From a virus: DNA of 24,647 nt. Position 1 is the first letter of the stretch. Each line of letters opens with the position of its first letter. This document shows, piece by piece, positions 12,443-19,796 of the stretch. Below the pieces are notes generated by a model. The model saw nothing but the letters and a program-made list of their open reading frames with translations, was not told where the DNA came from and made no database searches. Made by a program: the position numbers and the translations under genes. The DNA is taken from positions 1-24,647 of the IMG/VR virus record IMGVR_UViG_3300007363_000098; one strand, written 5' to 3'.

Positions 12443-13276
12443 TTATAGATTAAATCCATTAATCGGAGTTTGTATTTTTGAAATAAATCTATCGCTCAGA
12501 TGCAAATAAATGTTGGTAGTTTTTACTGAGTTGTGGCCCGCCACTTTTTGTATAAGATTTATATCCGTTCCACTTTCAACCATGTGGGTAAAAGAGCAGT
12601 GCCGCATCAGGTGCGCATAAACCTTTTTATTGATCCCGGCTTTGCCTGCCAGCTGCTTTAATACCTCATTTACGCTGCGCGAGCTATATTGCGGCTCAAG
12701 CCGTCCGTTTAATACATACACCTGCGGCTTATAAGTATGATAATACTTTTCCAGCAGCGGAATAAGCTCAGGGGCCAGCGGCACCTGCCTGTCTTTTTTA
12801 CCCTTTGCCTGCAATATGTTTATGATCATACGGCTTCGGTCAATATGCTTCCACTGTAAATTTATCAATTCTGAAACCCGCAACCCGCAGCTGTAAAGCA
12901 GCGCCATAATAACCTTATGCTTGGTATTACTGCAAACAGCAAACATGCGCTGCACTTCGTCTTTACTTAGCACAATAGGCAGCTTTTTACTTCCTCGCGG
13001 ATATTCTACCTTATCAAGCTTATCCGGTTGGTTGCCAACCTTTGCATAAAATAACTTAATAGCACTTAGGTAAGCCCGGTGCGTGTTGGGTTCATTAAAC
13101 TGAGTAAGAAACAATTTTATTTTTTCTGCAGATATTTCGCTTGGCTTGGTTGCCTGCCCATCAAAATGCGCCAGAAACTTGCCCAGGCACGAAACATAAT
13201 TTTTAACACTTTCAGGGGAGTAGCGTTTGTAATTCATCCAGTCGGTAAGCTGCCGCTGGTATTTTCCGATGTTCAT
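12443..13276 (-). CDS. tyrosine recombinase (XerC/D-like integrase)
   Basis: 277 residues. Residues 1-85 form the SAM-like core-binding domain (YSPESVKNYVSCLGKFL). The catalytic domain has Arg133 (SCGLRVSEL), Lys160 (AKGKKDR), His222 and Arg225 (AHLMRHCSFTH), His248 (AGHNSVKTT) and nucleophile Tyr257 (NIYLHL), so it should be active. It cuts and rejoins DNA through a 3'-phosphotyrosine. The C-terminus KIQTPING resembles the tail of XerD-type and IntI enzymes. It is shorter than typical IntI proteins and has no insertion ahead of the HxxR box. It follows the cassette array in the same orientation. It could integrate the phage, move cassettes, or both. Confidence 0.9.
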   Translation of the reverse strand: MNIGKYQRQLTDWMNYKRYSPESVKNYVSCLGKFLAHFDGQATKPSEISAEKIKLFLTQFNEPNTHRAYLSAIKLFYAKVGNQPDKLDKVEYPRGSKKLPIVLSKDEVQRMFAVCSNTKHKVIMALLYSCGLRVSELINLQWKHIDRSRMIINILQAKGKKDRQVPLAPELIPLLEKYYHTYKPQVYVLNGRLEPQYSSRSVNEVLKQLAGKAGINKKVYAHLMRHCSFTHMVESGTDINLIQKVAGHNSVKTTNIYLHLSDRFISKIQTPINGFNL

Positions 13277-13327
13277 GTTGTTTGGTTTTGATTATTAGTT
13301 ATTTATAAGGGTAGTTTACATATAATA

Positions 13328-13360
13328 GTTACGGAAAACCCCTTCGGGCTTTTCCGTAAC
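13328..13360 (-). repeat. 33-nt minimal, ORF-less element at array end
   Basis: On the coding strand it runs GTTACGGAAAA, an 11-nt loop region, TTTTCCGTAAC. Its two ends are complementary like those of the other units, but it holds no ORF. It may be an empty cassette remnant or half of the primary attachment site. As RNA it would also form a stable hairpin just upstream of the recombinase gene. Confidence 0.55.
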
Positions 13361-13461
13361 GGAGCGGCTGCTTTGCGACACGTGACAGCCTGAAGGGGCT
13401 GTCCCGTAACAGGTGCTTTGGCGAAATGCCAAAGGCACTGTCGCAAAGCAGCCGCTCCGTT
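13358..13461 (-). repeat. attC-like site 7, with 23-bp perfect arms
   Basis: Arms 13358-13380 and 13439-13461 are perfectly complementary (AACGGAGCGG... against ...CCGCTCCGTT). Two further hairpins sit inside: GACAGCC/GGCTGTC (13384-13403) and GTGCTTTGGC/GCCAAAGGCAC (13413-13438). The resulting cruciform has three stems. It follows the unit whose stop codon overlaps its left edge. It is the longest perfect pairing among the seven sites. Confidence 0.7.
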
Positions 13462-13729
13462 ATGTTCCAGTTTGCTCTGCCTCCCCACGCAGTAGTTCAC
13501 CATAATATTCCTTTGAGTGTTTGTCAGGATAATAATCCAAATGTCCACTTTCAAGGTATCCAGTTTTGTAAGCTGTAACTATAATCTGTTTCTCTTTTTC
13601 AAGCCATTCATCAAACTTCAAGCGCATTTCTTCGTGGTCTATTGCCACATATTTAGTTCCGTCTTGCCCTTCAATATTAAAGGCGTTTTCAAGTGTCCAT
13701 TGGATTAAATCCTGTAATGATGTCGTCAT
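13460..13729 (-). CDS. cassette gene, unknown 89-aa protein
   Basis: 89 residues, acidic, mostly helical, with EKEKQIIVTAYKTGYLE and a tyrosine-rich end (DYYPDKHSKEYYGELLRGE). It has its own start 49 nt inside the unit, after attC-like site 6, and its TAA overlaps the first bases of site 7. Similar short proteins with a 'EKEQII.A' helix are familiar in phage genomes, but no function is known to me. Confidence 0.65.
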   Translation of the reverse strand: MTTSLQDLIQWTLENAFNIEGQDGTKYVAIDHEEMRLKFDEWLEKEKQIIVTAYKTGYLESGHLDYYPDKHSKEYYGELLRGEAEQTGT

Positions 13730-13777
13730 ATTATTTTATTTTTAGTTAGTAAATCCACCCACGCAAACCGAAAACAT

Positions 13778-13835
13778 AACAGCACCTAAATCGCAAGTGG
13801 CTGAAAAAGCCACCAGCGTTTAGCTGCAAAACGTT
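13778..13835 (-). repeat. attC-like site 6
   Basis: 58 nt, the shortest site. Coding strand begins AACGTTTTGCAGCTAAACGC and ends ATTTAGGTGCTGTT; the middle folds as GTGGCT/AGCCAC around a T-run. The left arm has extra unpaired bases (GTTTT) relative to the right, the kind of asymmetry that lets integron enzymes choose one strand of an attC site. Confidence 0.7.
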
Positions 13836-14189
13836 CTACGCAATGCTACTGACTGCTTCTAATGGAGTGTATCGTTCAACTTTAAATAATTTTTTGCCCA
13901 CCCGCTTTAAAAGAAATTTTTGTTCAGTCATATCATAACAATATCCGTAATGCTTGCACCTACCATTTTTTCCATTGTTCGGTTTATACCCATCACAAGC
14001 CCTTCCACATTCACCCGTTTCGCCAATGCAGAAATATTCTTTGCAGAAAAAATATCCTGTGCCCGTTTCTCTTACTGCAAGCACCAGCACAATTTCTTTT
14101 AAATCGTTTTCTATCAAATAGTCCTTGAAGTAATCTATCTGATAACAGTTTTCATCATTGTCATCTGTGAAGTATAGTTTTTTTGCCAT
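13836..14189 (-). CDS. cassette gene, cysteine-rich 117-aa protein
   Basis: 117 residues starting MAKKLYFTDDND. The middle holds seven cysteines in a compact pattern (CKEYFC, GECGRACDGYKP, GRCKHYGYCY) with a His and several Gly, likely a zinc-binding or disulfide-stabilised knuckle. The N-terminal half alternates hydrophobic and charged residues (LKEIVLVLAVRETG). It is flanked by attC-like sites 5 and 6. The function is unknown; a small metal-binding protein that contacts nucleic acid or another protein is a reasonable guess only. Confidence 0.7.
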   Translation of the reverse strand: MAKKLYFTDDNDENCYQIDYFKDYLIENDLKEIVLVLAVRETGTGYFFCKEYFCIGETGECGRACDGYKPNNGKNGRCKHYGYCYDMTEQKFLLKRVGKKLFKVERYTPLEAVSSIA

Positions 14190-14258
14190 CGCTAAAAATT
14201 ATTTAAAGTTGTTTATCGTTTCAATTTAAGTTCATTGTAATTTGACCGCACTGCGTAG

Positions 14259-14331
14259 AACATACGATTAAATGCAACCTGCACCACCGCACAATGCCAC
14301 CCTTCGCAGGCAGCATTAATCGTCCATCGTT
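14259..14331 (-). repeat. attC-like site 5
   Basis: 73 nt. On the coding strand it begins AACGATGGACGATTAATGC and ends GCATTTAATCGTATGTT, so CGATTAATGC pairs with GCATTTAATCG; inner CTGC/GCAG and CCAC-type pairings continue the stem. It differs in sequence from the GCAGC-type sites but keeps the outer AAC and GTT and the unpaired bases next to them. Confidence 0.65.
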
Positions 14332-14342
14332 AGTGGCAAGTG

Positions 14343-14573
14343 CTACGATAGGTCGTCTATTTCAGCTTTCCAATCCATACAATCTCTTTCCCTAACATTT
14401 GATGACATCCAATCAGCTACATCGGGGTATTTGTGCATTTCAATTTCATCGCCATTTTCGGCAGCTTTTACCATTTGCTCATAAATTTCTTTAGGCATTT
14501 CTACTCCTCCGTAACCAACTCTATAAGTTACTGTTAGGGAAAGAGATTTTACTTTTTTAGTTCCTTTTGACAT
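14343..14573 (-). CDS. cassette gene, unknown 76-aa protein
   Basis: 76 residues: a basic start (MSKGTKKVKSLSLTVTYRVGYGG), the helical stretch MPKEIYEQMVKAAENGDEI, then an acidic end with VRERDCMDWKAEIDDL. It occupies the whole unit between attC-like sites 4 and 5 and has its own ATG 23 nt after the unit start. Unrecognised. Confidence 0.65.
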   Translation of the reverse strand: MSKGTKKVKSLSLTVTYRVGYGGVEMPKEIYEQMVKAAENGDEIEMHKYPDVADWMSSNVRERDCMDWKAEIDDLS

Positions 14574-14601
14574 TTTCGTTTAATTTACCGCACCAGCCAC
14601 T

Positions 14602-14696
14602 AACAGTGGTTTTGTGCTATTATTTTGCCTATTAATTTTATCTAAGGCTTGAAATGTCTGCAAGGCAAAATAACAGACACAAAGCCGCAAAACGTT
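14602..14696 (-). repeat. attC-like site 4
   Basis: 95 nt. Coding strand begins AACGTTTTGCGGCTTTGTG and ends AGCACAAAACCACTGTT. The main stem pairs TTTGTG with CACAAA and TTATTTTGCC with GGCAAAATAA, separated by small internal loops. No start codon in a useful frame lies within it. Confidence 0.7.
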
Positions 14697-14720
14697 AGCA
14701 GTAATAAACCGCCAACGCAC

Positions 14721-15119
14721 CTAAGCAAATCCTTCTCCTTTCTCAATCAGCACCCAAGTATTATCTCCATGTCTTTGATATGTTCCTGAACGCAACGGGA
14801 GGTTCAAATCAGCCAGCCACTCAACATTCGGTTCTTTCTTTGCCAATCGCTCAAACTTCATCAGCGTTGGGTATTCCTCAAATTCCAAGTTGCTATCTCC
14901 CATATAAAATTGCTTTCCGTCTTTCAGTATTACCCACCCGCCAAATCCGTTATACATTCTCGTATTTAATGGGAGTTTATCAACTGTGGCTGGACAGCAA
15001 AGGCAACCTCCCGTTCCTCCCTCAATAGCAGGCTTCCACCACGCAGGGTTACTACTGCTAACAGCAGCCTTATGCAATGCGGGGGTCGGTGCTTCGTTTG
15101 ATACTTTTTTCTTTGTCAT
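14721..15119 (-). CDS. cassette gene fused to attC-encoded leader, 132 aa
   Basis: 132 residues. The first 19 or so (MTKKKVSNEAPTPALHKAA) are encoded by attC-like site 3, and Val20 is the GTT at the cassette boundary. The body has GGTGGCLCC with paired cysteines, GFGGWVILKDGKQFYMGD and LPLRSGTYQRHGDNTWVLI, a small beta-rich protein with a possible metal site. The leader closely resembles that of the gene at 16027-16599 (VSDEAQNPRFCKGAV), although the bodies are unrelated. No other ATG lies near the boundary, so the site probably supplies the start. The function is unknown. Confidence 0.65.
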   Translation of the reverse strand: MTKKKVSNEAPTPALHKAAVSSSNPAWWKPAIEGGTGGCLCCPATVDKLPLNTRMYNGFGGWVILKDGKQFYMGDSNLEFEEYPTLMKFERLAKKEPNVEWLADLNLPLRSGTYQRHGDNTWVLIEKGEGFA

Positions 15120-15185
15120 AAAATTCGTTTTTCAAATTAAGGTCTGTGCTATTAAGCCCGCACTGACATAAGGCTGCAAACCGTT
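15060..15185 (-). repeat. attC-like site 3
   Basis: 126 nt. Coding strand begins AACGGTTTGCAGCCTTATG and ends GCATAAGGCTGCTGTT; GCAGCCTTATG pairs with CATAAGGCTGC, and the stem continues with GCGGG/CCCGC. The roughly 80-nt loop holds an ATG and codons that read straight across the right arm into the next cassette gene. Confidence 0.75.
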
Positions 15186-15272
15186 ATCGGCAAGCGGGTG
15201 CAGTCCTTCGTATCAAGTGCAGAGAGGAAAATTTGAATTAAAAAATCCTCCCCGCAAATGATTGAATTATGA

Positions 15273-15335
15273 TTACTTCTTCGGCTTTTTTGGCTTCGGT
15301 TTTGGCATCGGCATTGTCATTGGTTTCTTAGCCAT
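15273..15335 (-). CDS. possible 20-aa lysine/proline-rich micropeptide
   Basis: ATG at 15335 opens MAKKPMTMPMPKPKPKKPKK, ending in TAA. It lies in the same unit as the gene at 15386, 50 nt downstream of it. The upstream A-rich leader (CAATTAAACGCAAATATC) resembles those of neighbouring genes. The composition is extremely basic and low-complexity, which suits nucleic-acid binding if it is translated; chance is a real alternative for so short a frame. Confidence 0.35.
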   Translation of the reverse strand: MAKKPMTMPMPKPKPKKPKK

Positions 15336-15385
15336 GATATTTGCGTTTAATTGTTATGCTGAAATTTATAGGCGTTCAGCTTCTC

Positions 15386-15778
15386 CTATTTTAATTTTAC
15401 TTCATCATTAGTCAGCCATTTGTGATTTGTCATCTTCATTCCGTCTTTCATCACCACATCTGAAAGCATTGCAGGAAGTGAGTAACTTTTTACAGTTGCC
15501 GTTCCTCCTTTCATTCCGTCCATGTGATTTACAAGCACTTCAATATTACTCCCTTCTTTGATTACTTTTGATTTTGCATCATCCTTATTGTAATCAATTG
15601 AAAAATTGTCTTTCAATTTCTTCTTTGCATCATCCCTGTTTGATTGTGCTTCTAAAGAGCGGTCAACCGCCCATTGTTTAAGTGCTTCATCATCATATAA
15701 TGCTTGAGCCGATTTTACTACTTGGTCGTAACTCTGTATCAGGTTAGCCAGTTTTTGTTTTGATGTATCTTTTGCCAT
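15386..15778 (-). CDS. cassette gene, unknown 130-aa protein
   Basis: 130 residues starting MAKDTSKQKLANLIQ. The first half is helical with coiled-coil character (QSYDQVVKSAQALYDDEALKQW, DDAKKKLKDNF). The second half looks like a small beta domain (NIEVLVNHMDGMKGGTATVKSYSLPAMLSDVVM). The start lies well inside the unit, after a 110-nt A/T-rich leader. Flanked by attC-like sites 2 and 3. Unrecognised. Confidence 0.7.
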   Translation of the reverse strand: MAKDTSKQKLANLIQSYDQVVKSAQALYDDEALKQWAVDRSLEAQSNRDDAKKKLKDNFSIDYNKDDAKSKVIKEGSNIEVLVNHMDGMKGGTATVKSYSLPAMLSDVVMKDGMKMTNHKWLTNDEVKLK

Positions 15779-15891
15779 TTTATTTTATAATTTAATTGTT
15801 AATGATTTAATGATTTGCCCACGCTATTTTTAATTCAAATTTTCTTTCCGTCTTCGTATCAACTTTTGTCGTGAGAAGTCCGCCAGCCGAT

Positions 15892-16016
15892 AACAGCACC
15901 TAAAACGAAGGCGGGGGTTCTCTGCCTCTTATAAAAATTTGTAGTAGTTTGAAATTCATTGCTTCGTATTTAGTTTAGTGGTTAATCTCCCCGCCTTCGT
16001 TTAGCTGCAAATCGTT
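15892..16016 (-). repeat. attC-like site 2
   Basis: 125 nt. Coding strand begins AACGATTTGCAGCTAAACG and ends CGTTTTAGGTGCTGTT. CGAAGGCGGGG pairs with CCCCGCCTTCG, with a one-base bulge and a mismatch nearer the ends and five unpaired bases (GATTT) only in the left arm. The loop carries a short frame, MNFKLLQIFIRGREPPPSF, whose TAG lies in the right arm just before the boundary. Confidence 0.75.
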
Positions 16017-16026
16017 ATAGCCAATG

Positions 16027-16599
16027 CTACGACAGCGATACAGCGGACACTTCATAAGGCTTTGGCTTTAGGTGTTTCGGTAAATACAATGGATGCTTTG
16101 GCGTTCCATCGTTTGACAATTCAATGTAGTGAAGTGGTTTGCTAATCCACGACAAAGGCTTCCAATTATGGTCTAATCGCTTTTGCAATTTGTCCACTAT
16201 TGCACTATTCCCCCATGCACAAACAACCAAGTGTGCAAGTGCCGACATTCTTCTAAACCACTTTTCATTTTCAACGCCTACAACAAATGGAGCCTTCAGT
16301 AAGTCTTTCGGGTTTGTGGCTCTTAATGCAAACAAGTTCACAACGTAAATTCCACCATATCCCCAATCCTTGGCAAAGCCCATACATCTTCGAATAGTCG
16401 GGTCGTCTTTTTCTGCATCAGCCGTTGAAGGATTTAGCATTATGAATAATACTCTCGGTTTATTTTCATCCCAAACACGACAAAGGGAATAGCGATACTT
16501 TTCGCAATCAGACAGAACAGCACTGGCTATAACAGCACCCTTGCAAAAGCGGGGGTTCTGTGCTTCGTCTGATACATTTGTGGTTAAATCATTGTTCAT
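16027..16599 (-). CDS. DUF1643 family protein with attC-encoded start
   Basis: 190 residues. From about residue 35 it matches my memory of DUF1643: YRYSLCRVWD, then MLNPSTAD (54-61), DDPTIRRC (65-72), GYGGIYVVNLFALRATNP and VVCAWGNS. The family is found in phages and host genomes; its activity is unknown. The first 22 residues (MNNDLTTNVSDEAQNPRFCKGA) come from attC-like site 1; Val23 is the boundary GTT. No usable in-frame start follows until the middle of the domain (Met54), so the leader appears needed. It is the first cassette after the primase gene. Confidence 0.8.
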   Translation of the reverse strand: MNNDLTTNVSDEAQNPRFCKGAVIASAVLSDCEKYRYSLCRVWDENKPRVLFIMLNPSTADAEKDDPTIRRCMGFAKDWGYGGIYVVNLFALRATNPKDLLKAPFVVGVENEKWFRRMSALAHLVVCAWGNSAIVDKLQKRLDHNWKPLSWISKPLHYIELSNDGTPKHPLYLPKHLKPKPYEVSAVSLS

Positions 16600-16650
16600 C
16601 TTTCTAATTCAATTTTGTGGTTAAGTTCCCCGCCTTCGCAAGGCTGCAAC
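16531..16650 (-). repeat. attC-like site 1 (array start)
   Basis: 120 nt, beginning directly at the end of the primase gene. The left arm GTTGCAGCCTTGCGAAGGCGGGG pairs with CCCCCGCTTTTGCAAGGGTGC. The usual left AAC is replaced by AATAGTT, part of the outer 11-bp repeat. The loop includes the ATG of the DUF1643 gene and GTATCA.ACGAAGCAC, a stretch also found in site 3. Confidence 0.7.
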
Positions 16651-16652
16651 TA

Positions 16653-19600
16653 TTATATCGCCCCCTCCATCTCCATTTCCATTTGAGGATCATTATTTTT
16701 AAGGTTTACACCTAGCTCATCATATTTAAAAACATAAGCGCTGCTTACACCATCCTCAAAGCCGGTGGCTTTAATAAGCCCAACAAAAGCCTTGTGCCCG
16801 TGTATGTATGTTTTTAGTGAGCTCATGGCCATACCATTATGCCCGTGCTGCTTGCGGTGCATTTCCATATAAAGCGGATGCACCTTGGTAAACCTCATAT
16901 AAAGCAGGCGGGTTGGTTTGTCAAGCACCACCGTTTTTTGCTCGGTGCGGTTAAGCATAATTTTAATCTCCTGGGCAGTATCAACCTTAAAATCAGTTTC
17001 AACAGAGCGCAAGCCATCCCAGTTAATGCGCTTATCACGAAACAAAAACTCAATCATCATCCAGAACTGGCTCAACGCTTCACTTTCACTTATCTGTGCG
17101 CTCTGCTCAATAATCATGGCTTTACTTAGCTTGTAAATTTCCTTATAAGTAAAAGGCAGTGGCAGCACATCTTCCAGCACCTTGGCCGCAGTAATAACAG
17201 TAATAAAGTTGCGCAGTATCCGCTCATTATAATCTTCCAGCTCCTCCTTCATGGCGGTAAACTGCTCCTGAAAAACGGTGGCAAACTTCGCCTCCATCAA
17301 ATCGCGGTATTTGATCACATCAGCTATAACCCCGCTCAGTCCGCTTTCCTCCATCTGCTTAAGCTCGCTGTAAGCCTTTGTTGTATCTGTTTTACCTTGC
17401 CAGTCCTCTCTGCGAAAGGTAAGCAGCAGCGAGCGGGTAAAAAGCGCATTATCATCAAGCGTTGGCAGGTATTGCCCCGAAATAACACAGGCGCTGTTTA
17501 CCTTGGTGCTTTCGGTGCGGTTATCGCGGCTCATTACACCCTTCTCGTGCCCGATACCATCATAAGCAGATTTCAAAGCCTGAAAGCGCTTCTGGTCAAT
17601 CATGTCATTATACTCATCAAACCAAACAATGCTGTTGCGGGCGCGGGCAAGCTTGCGGTAAAAACCTACATTGGTTCCTGCTGTAAGGTTAAAGCCCGGC
17701 TGCGAGTTCCAGAAAATATTATTTAAGCTCCAGCCAAGCTGCGATTTACCACTACCCTTCTCACCAAACAAAAACAGGTGCGGGAAAATCTTGTATTTGC
17801 TGTAAATCATATCCCTGAAAAGCGCTGCCAGCAAAAAAGCAACTCCAAAGCGCCCCTTATCGCCATACGCCTCAACCATTAGCTTAGCCCAGCGCTCAAA
17901 ATTGTTTTTAGGGGTGTGGGTAAACTTAAACCATCTGTCATTTTCATATTGATCATCCTCCTCACGCACATCGGCATAAATGGTAGAAAAGGCAGGCAAA
18001 AAGAAGTGCTTATCCTTATGCATAACCACCCCGTGCTGATTTACGCGCATAAAAGCACCATTATAAATACCATCGCTAAAGGCATAAAAACCTTCCGGCT
18101 GCCAGCCAAGCGTTTTTAACTCCTCGCAAAGCGGAAACTTATCTGCTATTTTAGCCACTATTTTATTTAAGTGTGCAGCGTTGCCCTCAAAGAGATAGTT
18201 GCCTTCATTAAAAACGGTTTCTTTAAATTGCTGCACGCCAACAAGCGCCTTGCTTTGTAAGTCCAGTACTTTATTAAGCCTGCCATTATCAATCTCAACA
18301 AGGCGCTTATTATCCATCTTGCTGTAAATATGGTGTAATGGCTTCATTATAAAATTGCTTACCGGCTTAAAGTCTATTGCGCCCACATTCCAAAAATAAT
18401 AGCCCGCGTTACCCTTCTCAGAAAGCTCGTAAAAACCATTCTTTTCGAACTCCTCACGGTTTACACCCTTTGGTAATGGCTTATCAGTTGGGGCAATAAC
18501 TTCGTCAAAAATTTCGCTTTTGTGGTTAAACACCTCGCGCTTAAAATCTTTTGAATCAAGTGCGCATATTTTAGCAACGCTTTTGCAGTAATCATTTACA
18601 ATAATATCATCATCAATACGGCAAATCAGGTCAACCATTTCGTTAAAGAGTTCGCTTTTTTCGCGTATGTTTTTAATCAGTTTTGTTTTTACATCGGCAA
18701 AGTGCAGGATGGCATCGGTATGCATACCATGTATCTGAGCATACACATCTTCTGCCGGTGCTGTGGATCTGAAAAAATCATCCGGATCTAATCCTTCAGG
18801 TAAAATAACACACTCGGCAGTAAAGCCTGCCGCAATGGCAATGGGCAGGTTTTTAATAAGTGCGTTGCGCCCTGCCTTGTCGGCATCGTAAATAAAAACA
18901 AGGTGGTTGCAGTATTTTTTGAGCAGGCGGCACTGGGCAGGAGTTAAAGCGGTGCCGCAGGGAGCCACTGTATTTTCTAATCCAAAGCCGTGCATGCTTA
19001 CCACATCCCAGTTACCCTCTGCAACATAGGCAAAACCCTTTTCGCGTATTTTGCTTTTGGACAAATTGAGTCCAAAAAGTTCGTTTCCCTTTATAAATAC
19101 AGATGTTTCGCCTGTGTTTAAATATTTGGCGGCTTCCTTTTCTCCGCTCAGGTCGCGGCCGCTAAATCCAACCACCATATTTTTCTCATTGTGTATTGGA
19201 AACATAAGGCGGTTGCGGAATACATCGTATTTTTTCCCCTTACTCTCGCGTATAAGATCAAGGTCCTGCAACTGCTGCGCATTTTGACCGGCAAGCTGTG
19301 CCGCTTTAATCAGGTTATCCCAACCATCGGCAGCAAAACCAAGGTTAAACTTTTCAGCAAGTTCTTTAGAGCAGCGCAGTGCACCCTTTGGCGCATCAAT
19401 CAAACGCTCATGGTAGTAGTTAGATGCCCATGCGTTAATATCGGTAAGGCGCTGGGTGCTTTCCATCTTTGCTTTGTAGGCAACAGCCTGCTCACTTTCA
19501 TCATACTCAACAACAATATTGTGGTTGTGTGCCAGTATTTTTATAGCCTCCAGCCACTCAACACCCTCTTTGTGCATTACAAAATTAACAGGGCTGTTAC

Positions 19601-19796
19601 CACCTTTGCCGCAGCCAAAGCATTTATAAATCCCTTTGGCTATGCTAACATTAAAGCTTGGTGTTTTCTCATCATGAAAAGGGCAGCAGCTTCCATAGTT
19701 GGCTCCCTTCTTTTTAAGGTCAACTCCATAGCGGTTTATTACCGTTACAAGGTCTAATTCATAAACTTTATCAATAGTGGAAGGCGAAATGAGCAT
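16653..19796 (-). CDS. primase/ATPase fusion (DnaG-like primase with helicase-like domain)
   Basis: 1047 residues, the main replication protein in the window. Residues 37-62 are a CHC2 zinc finger (CCPFH, YKCFGCGKGG; Cys38, His41, Cys59, Cys62). A TOPRIM catalytic core follows, with Glu260 (VAEGNWD) and the Asp304/Asp306 pair (YDADKAG). The C-terminal half has Walker A GEKGSGKS (678-685) and Walker B WFDEYND (725-731), then an ISGQ stretch after RDNRTE, as in superfamily 3 or DUF927-like phage ATPases. It should prime and probably unwind DNA at the phage origin. The stop codon lies in the outer repeat that bounds the cassette array. Confidence 0.88.
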   Translation of the reverse strand: MLISPSTIDKVYELDLVTVINRYGVDLKKKGANYGSCCPFHDEKTPSFNVSIAKGIYKCFGCGKGGNSPVNFVMHKEGVEWLEAIKILAHNHNIVVEYDESEQAVAYKAKMESTQRLTDINAWASNYYHERLIDAPKGALRCSKELAEKFNLGFAADGWDNLIKAAQLAGQNAQQLQDLDLIRESKGKKYDVFRNRLMFPIHNEKNMVVGFSGRDLSGEKEAAKYLNTGETSVFIKGNELFGLNLSKSKIREKGFAYVAEGNWDVVSMHGFGLENTVAPCGTALTPAQCRLLKKYCNHLVFIYDADKAGRNALIKNLPIAIAAGFTAECVILPEGLDPDDFFRSTAPAEDVYAQIHGMHTDAILHFADVKTKLIKNIREKSELFNEMVDLICRIDDDIIVNDYCKSVAKICALDSKDFKREVFNHKSEIFDEVIAPTDKPLPKGVNREEFEKNGFYELSEKGNAGYYFWNVGAIDFKPVSNFIMKPLHHIYSKMDNKRLVEIDNGRLNKVLDLQSKALVGVQQFKETVFNEGNYLFEGNAAHLNKIVAKIADKFPLCEELKTLGWQPEGFYAFSDGIYNGAFMRVNQHGVVMHKDKHFFLPAFSTIYADVREEDDQYENDRWFKFTHTPKNNFERWAKLMVEAYGDKGRFGVAFLLAALFRDMIYSKYKIFPHLFLFGEKGSGKSQLGWSLNNIFWNSQPGFNLTAGTNVGFYRKLARARNSIVWFDEYNDMIDQKRFQALKSAYDGIGHEKGVMSRDNRTESTKVNSACVISGQYLPTLDDNALFTRSLLLTFRREDWQGKTDTTKAYSELKQMEESGLSGVIADVIKYRDLMEAKFATVFQEQFTAMKEELEDYNERILRNFITVITAAKVLEDVLPLPFTYKEIYKLSKAMIIEQSAQISESEALSQFWMMIEFLFRDKRINWDGLRSVETDFKVDTAQEIKIMLNRTEQKTVVLDKPTRLLYMRFTKVHPLYMEMHRKQHGHNGMAMSSLKTYIHGHKAFVGLIKATGFEDGVSSAYVFKYDELGVNLKNNDPQMEMEMEGAI

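Follow-up and report, generated by a model that had tools for sequence, protein, structure and literature searches.

A 24,647-nt stretch of viral DNA (IMG/VR virus record IMGVR_UViG_3300007363_000098, positions 1-24,647; this whole stretch is called the window below) carries an array of small gene cassettes, and we consider it highly probable that the locus represents an integron of a Bacteroidota type carried by a phage, with its own recombinase, its own insertion site (attI) and cassettes bearing attC sites. The array is composed of seven hairpin sites (S1 to S7) and six co-oriented small open reading frames (ORFs), as initially annotated, all on the minus strand, and is flanked by the stop codon of a primase gene and by a tyrosine recombinase gene. 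The window belongs to a tailed phage, because structural and replication genes are found on the same contig (head maturation protease, tail-fibre-like protein and DnaG-type, that is phage-type, primase). The evidence is comparative throughout and covers the sites and their covariation, gene polarity, in-frame start codons, breakpoints at AA|C, conservation of attI, and gain and loss of whole cassettes in cultured relatives.

The initial annotation of this DNA had proposed an integron-like cassette array within a phage and a comparison with related phage contigs. The proposal is supported, and in the comparison whole units proved to be gained, lost and re-combined among relatives. The recombinase, attI and the start codons inside the sites had been missed, and the remark that no standard phage feature has such a layout was not quite right, since phage clusters of attC sites lacking integron-integrases (CALINs) had already been published by Qi et al. 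(2023; PMC9892861).

Recombinase and attI

The tyrosine recombinase (12443-13276, minus strand, 277 aa), in which the residues R-K-H-R-H-Y are visible in alignment, is taken as the cassette integrase and is 32-40% identical to integrases beside bacterial arrays. Against the model TIGR02249 it scores 170 bits (cut-off 265) with the middle part of the model unaligned, it has no counterpart of residues ~181-247 of IntI4 (2a3v), and alignment with IntI1 and a Shewanella IntI likewise places it among proteins lacking the IntI-specific insertion. The nearest solved structure is XerA (5hxy). In a tree, IntI and Xer proteins group with each other to the exclusion of the array recombinases (support 88); branches within the array group are poorly supported, and the bacterial integrase G019 is unplaced. 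A peptide-pattern search for close relatives of the window recombinase returned its own contig only.

Relatives of this recombinase are located downstream of the array and on the same strand in 11 of the 11 viral array loci for which one was found (window, L036, L102, L069, L273, L127, L285, L290, L291, L298 and L302, some of which represent the same phage). Just 5' of the recombinase gene lies TAA|CTATTATATGTAAACTACC, and we assign AA|CTATTATATGTAAACTACC (13310-13330, minus strand) as the integrase-side half of attI. Its 21 nt from AAC on are identical in the window and in the phage contig L036, the two recombinases being 59% identical. The attI-like sequences of L298, L302, L291 and L290 are similar, and the phage attI resembles bacterial attI of the TAA|CTAGTATATATG type. 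Conservation of this boundary, together with the empty and filled attI of the isolates described next, indicates that the site adjoins the integrase and receives cassettes. With a related recombinase and attI abutting it, the array is not a CALIN, unless only IntI is counted as an integrase.

Gain and loss of whole cassettes in cultured phages

Because BLAST of a viral attC against phage records gave only short and weak matches, cultured relatives were sought via the recombinase. The flavophages Freya and Ingeline were reached by a related recombinase in phage records, and Leef by that of the window itself. The ten Freya isolates (MT732463-MT732472 = Freya_1-10) come from a single Polaribacter host; their circular genomes measure 43,978-48,920 b, with the array at the record start and end around the integrase (loci L316-L329). 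In seven of them (Freya_1, 2, 5, 6, 8, 9 and 10) we compared the segment bounded by the last backbone gene and the integrase. Between the same flanks, the arrays upstream of the integrase range from 0 to ~5 kb and from 0 to about 12 genes. No cassette is present in Freya_1, whose attI is empty; blocks on the integrase side of the Freya_10 array are missing, in decreasing size, from Freya_2, 5 and 9; Freya_6 carries an additional 469-nt piece, a cassette, adjoining attI; and an internal 902 nt is absent from Freya_8. All junctions fall on AAC, with no variation in the attI half ACCCCTATAACAAC. Hairpins of 124, 124, 124 and 188 nt begin exactly at the junction AACs, two of them holding start codons that are read through GTT, and the junction sites are mutually dissimilar in sequence. 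The words integron and cassette are absent from the paper by Bartlau et al. that describes the isolation of these phages (PMC8776804).

The same loci could be read as a CALIN moved in trans by an integrase of the host, the phage recombinase being only a lysogeny integrase or dimer resolvase whose adjacency is incidental. Related array integrases are present in Bacteroidota hosts, no recombinase is visible in most of the viral loci fetched, XerA is the closest solved structure, Bartlau et al. interpret integrases of this kind as pointing to a temperate lifestyle (PMC8776804), and IntI1 recombines an attC of a Polaribacter phage in the laboratory (PMC9892861). We regard this explanation as improbable, since the array always has the recombinase at its attI end, attI and recombinase co-vary, as seen in the window and L036, and cassette gain and loss in Freya abuts the phage's own attI.

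Structure and distribution of the sites

At least 119 stretches of viral contigs match the pattern AACGNTTTGCRGC-N(80-110)-GGTGCTGTTA, and so do at least 120 from contigs of bacterial genomes, the latter almost all Bacteroidota. A slightly stricter pattern was found in 17 of 296 species genomes sampled from Bacteroidota (0 for the reversed pattern), and a relaxed site scanner detected 347 sites in 2.17 Mb of fetched DNA against 2 in the reversed control. Site length is sharply peaked at 125 nt, a value near which the gap limits of the pattern scan favour matches; the relaxed scanner agrees. The site sets were gathered by sequence pattern, and divergent sites are under-represented in them. A generic scanner for AAC/GTT hairpins, tried on Leef, was dropped as too noisy. 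Two observations concern bacteria only. Five Bacteroidota plasmids (NZ_CP123862, NZ_CP072214, NZ_CP072225, NZ_CP102755 and NZ_CP092416), two of them conjugative, carry sequence ~71-72% identical to a full-length bacterial attC, and the Bacteroidota genome G010 has 13 exact sites (contigs C6, C8, C14, C17 and C18), which belong to more than one array and have a loop family of their own.

Alignment of 36 sites gave 96% of cells paired, with changes on both sides in 15 of 22 pairs (fixed-column covariation), and a covariation score of 0.523 compared with 0.131 after shuffling and no more than 0.12 when slid. An unpaired G.G (columns 12/117) and asymmetric spacers of 5 nt versus 1 nt are conserved in typical sites. 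The sites therefore share with attC the AAC...GTT ends, an imperfect asymmetric hairpin and conservation of structure over sequence, S5 and S7 being deviant.

Within the window, most of what had been annotated on the repeats was reproduced with some corrections. They generally start with AAC and end with GTT, except that S1 starts with TATAATAGTTGCAGCC, having AAT in place of AAC. The left arm, thought to be common to five repeats, is exactly AACGNTTTGCRGC in four (S2, S3, S4 and S6) and different in S5. Common right arms were confirmed: GGTGCTGTTA is exact in S1, S2 and S6 and has one mismatch in S3, and with at most one mismatch it has 12 matches in the window, where 1.8 are expected by chance. 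The fold asymmetry of the attC type is conserved in typical sites and absent from S7, a near-perfect palindrome with 24-bp arms. The ends of each unit are complementary in a unit-specific manner, as had been stated: when the first 18 bases of a unit are set against the reverse complement of a unit end, 11-15 agree for the own end (mean 13.3, n=7) and 7.6 for the ends of other units. For 87 units from related loci, complementarity was 7.2/12 with the own end and 4.5/12 with other units.

Boundary of the cassette

Pairs of viral contigs that share only the upstream gene have unrelated attC sites (identity 0.33-0.74 in 8 pairs; background median 0.67), and those that share only the downstream gene often have a common attC (20 of 39 pairs at 0.8-1.0 identity). 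Endpoints of DNA similarity between phage contigs, not all of which are independent because they come from related contigs, are no more than 5 nt from AA|C, the left edge of a site, in 63 of 207 cases (control, 4) and no more than 10 nt from its right edge in 22 of 207 (control, 4). From these two results we conclude that a cassette consists of an attC and the gene downstream of it. A 291-nt cassette is 100% identical between otherwise different contigs (L029 or L031 versus L060 or L061), and L051 and L055 have a 459-nt cassette in common at 97% identity, both ends being at AA|C in each case. Comparison of relatives thus shows cassettes moving as units with crossover at G|TT (AA|C). The AAC/GTT boundaries initially assigned hold for the left edge as the main boundary, the right edge being only a minor one; a main boundary at the right edge (G|TT after GGTGCTG) was ruled out by the shared-gene pairs. 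The right-edge breakpoints, fewer than those at AA|C, appear to reflect a second and rarer exchange in which the frame is preserved.

Ordinary accessory genes lying between terminator or repeat hairpins could also be shuffled by homologous recombination at the repeats. Some sites are alike enough for homologous exchange, and both the right-edge endpoints and the 14 pairs of gene bodies found with different sites (see below) fit such shuffling. We nevertheless hold it to be very unlikely, because endpoints are concentrated within 5 nt of AA|C and are not spread across the repeat, exchanged units often have unlike sites, the junction sites in Freya are mutually dissimilar, end complementarity is confined within units, and the hairpins show covariation and a conserved mismatch.

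Gene polarity and start codons within the sites

A tyrosine recombinase of 341-592 aa is found a few kb or less from the sites in eight Bacteroidota genomes; it scores below the cut-off of the integron-integrase model and has a gap at the IntI insertion. Integrase and cassette genes are co-directional there with the motif on the opposite strand, and in most of these arrays a short conserved sequence of the TACTAG|TTA type follows the integrase stop codon. The Bacteroidota arrays have the anatomy of an integron without IntI. The array integrases of L250-L258, from Bacteroidota genomes, have one to three N-terminal modules (e.g. RWSKTLKAWHLPNTPENRLRF), possibly DNA-binding and found in none of the phage recombinases.

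Genes and motif are on the same strand at 209 viral sites, on opposite strands at 2 and mixed at 19; the corresponding numbers for bacterial sites are 1, 177 and 21. In phages, accordingly, the attC is located 5' of the cassette gene and not at its 3' end.

At 104 of 147 unique viral sites (121-129 nt), an in-site ATG begins a frame that crosses GGT GCT GTT and continues through at least 30 codons of the next gene. The other two frames gave 8 and 0, and the three frames of 165 bacterial sites 7, 0 and 3. The in-site ATG has A at -3 in 82%, at -4 in 75% and at -11/-12 in 81-84% of cases, which fits the translation initiation signals of Flavobacterium (PMC6847099). For 18 of the 104 there is no in-frame ATG anywhere in the gene part, and for a further 40 the first one is more than 20 codons in. 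Substitutions at the three codon positions in six homologous pairs were 29/25/57 in gene parts and 20/25/21 in leaders. Because the third-position excess of the gene parts is absent from the leaders, it is the frame that is kept and not the peptide, and amino-acid selection on the leader is unsupported. When the same gene stands behind different attC sites (14 pairs), both leaders are in frame in 12 pairs and only one in none. Coding attC sites are also present in jumbo-size phage records with terminase, namely one 276-kb record (L297 and L302) and one of 362 kb (L057); one such record also has a recombinase.

Recent acquisition of a canonical IntI integron or CALIN from a bacterium is hardly credible, even though the AAC...GTT sites, attI and the array are as in integrons and phage CALINs are published, because no recombinase has the IntI insertion, gene polarity is opposite to that of bacterial arrays, and start-codon attC types are nearly absent in bacterial genomes (7/165).

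Proposed mechanism and its support

In the integron interpretation that we prefer, the XerA/XerC-like recombinase would insert and excise cassettes by attI x attC recombination, with attI (AA|CTATTATATGTAAAC) just 5' of its gene and crossover at AA|C, or G|TT on the other strand. The substrate would be a folded single strand; recombination of the folded bottom strand is compatible with the folding and covariation. Each cassette would be an attC followed by one small gene, the polarity being inverted relative to bacterial arrays. The unpaired loop of most phage sites of this family contains an A-rich translation start and ATG, with a frame continuing through the right arm (..GGT GCT GTT..) into the gene. 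If the leader is translated, such a cassette would carry its own start signal and could be translated wherever it is inserted in a phage operon. The system functions like an integron and is not an IntI integron; since neither the IntI insertion nor the order gene then attC is found, we call it a phage-adapted variant and not a member of the integrons.

We also lean, if only slightly, towards a wider interpretation in which an integron system based on a recombinase lineage that lacks the IntI domain is common to Bacteroidota and their phages, the phages have turned its cassettes around so that attC also serves as a portable translation start, and the fixed codon phase at the right edge fits unrelated genes to different leaders and hence offers a route to new cassettes. 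This fitting of genes to leaders may be likened to phase-matched exon shuffling.

Several points weigh against the integron interpretation. The recombinases of Freya and of the window are distant from each other (each ~38% identical to the L302 protein), and in sequence most Freya sites are unlike those of the window; as evidence, Freya is therefore strong for the kind of system and indirect for the window. For the window phage itself, no further isolate with another array was found. Most of the viral loci fetched yielded no recombinase, though most are fragments (terminase, one family of which was searched, is present in 16 of 50 related viral records, the viral contigs being mostly fragments). 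Two sites of the window, S5 and S7, are atypical, and of its six gene cassettes only two have their start inside the site. The leader, which shows no amino-acid conservation, may be a tolerated extension.

Phage integron pieces were known before, mostly as CALINs without integrase. Cassette arrays now seem to be carried by phages of very different size (viral records of ~30 to 360 kb), and some array phages have a recombinase and attI of their own, in a phylum that yielded almost nothing in integron searches (PMC9024848). A start codon within attC bears on two questions, how cassettes without their own start signal are expressed and how genes become cassettes. With the cultured Polaribacter phage isolates of Freya, excision, use of attI and strand choice become testable.

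Cassettes of the window and their cargo

All features are on the minus strand. The DnaG-type primase gene (16653-19796) lies upstream of the array, and its TAA stop codon (16655-16653) provides, in its final two bases, the AA at the distal crossover point. Cassette 1 (16015-16652) consists of S1 (16657-16527) and a DUF1643 gene (16027-16599), and the ATG inside S1 opens a frame continuing through GTT (leader MNNDLTTNVSDEAQNPRFCK-GAV). Cassette 2 (15184-16014) has S2 (16019-15888), whose leader frame is broken, a DUF1541 gene with its own ATG (15386-15778) and a mini-ORF of 20 codons (15273-15335) encoding a basic repetitive peptide, MAKKPMTMPMPKPKPKKPKK. In cassette 3 (14695-15183), S3 (15188-15056) contains an ATG (leader MTKKKVSNEAPTPALHK-AAV) and precedes a 132-aa gene (14721-15119). 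The genes of the next three cassettes have their own ATG: cassette 4 (14330-14694) with S4 (14699-14598) and a 76-aa gene (14343-14573), cassette 5 (13834-14329) with the divergent S5 (14335-14255) and a 117-aa gene (13836-14189), and cassette 6 (13460-13833) with the short S6 (13838-13774) and an 89-aa gene (13460-13729). Cassette 7 (13329-13459) is gene-less, with the palindromic S7 (13464-13354) and a 33-nt body, GTTACGGAAAAGCCCGAAGGGGTTTTCCGTAAC, forming a terminator-like hairpin. The 33-nt hairpin at 13328-13360 between S7 and attI (GTTACGGAAAAGCCC-GAA-GGGGTTTTCCGTAAC) has R-box-like ends and is simultaneously terminator-like and a minimal gene-less cassette. Joining the array flanks at AA|C yields ATATAA-CTA-TTATAT, an inverted repeat immediately 3' of the primase stop. 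Rfam and tRNA searches gave no matches.

The cargo of the window is thus DUF1643, DUF1541 and four unknowns. Among 82 cassette-region proteins of viral contigs there are nine matches to N6/N4 DNA methylases, two to C5 methylases, one to MT-A70 and one to Mom; the majority have no Pfam match, and PADLOC agrees on the methyltransferases. Help against host defences, or anti-restriction, is our guess for the cargo from these relatives.

Comparison with known systems

Qi et al. (2023) reported integrons and CALINs in phages and recombination by IntI1 of an attC of the Polaribacter phage P12002L (PMC9892861). Their phage CALINs are alike in having attC arrays and methyltransferase cargo; they differ in being reported without an integrase, and P12002L was described with two attC sites in divergent direction. 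A phage recombinase, attI, coding attC and the polarity flip were not described there. By eye, P12002L (L313, 29960-38960) apparently has more gene-strand attC-like units than the two published, near methyltransferase genes. Freya, Ingeline and Leef share a related recombinase adjoining a run of small genes, in the order primase - small genes - integrase in Leef and Ingeline, and were published only as temperate-type phages with an integrase (PMC8776804). For Bacteroidetes, IntegronFinder 2.0 gave only In0 elements and one complete integron (PMC9024848), and no description of a Bacteroidota integron of the window type was found in the open-access literature.

XerA, XerC and XerD are of similar size and also have no IntI insertion, and the cellular Xer proteins of these genomes are separate from the array recombinases in the tree, in which support within the array group is low. 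In integrons of the Treponema type, intI is co-directional with the cassettes, the integrase is a true IntI and attC is 3' of the gene. They share the one-strand arrangement of integrase and cassettes with the phage arrays and differ from them by the true IntI and the 3' attC. Canonical IntI integrons are alike in having cassettes of a gene and an attC, an attI adjoining the integrase, crossover at G|TT, excision and insertion of whole cassettes, and hairpin attC sites with conserved ends and a variable stem. The system described here differs from them in its recombinase without the IntI insertion and in the spacer asymmetry of 5 versus 1 with a conserved mismatch, and, in phages, in an attC that is 5' of the gene and often contains its start codon, with integrase and cassette genes on one strand.

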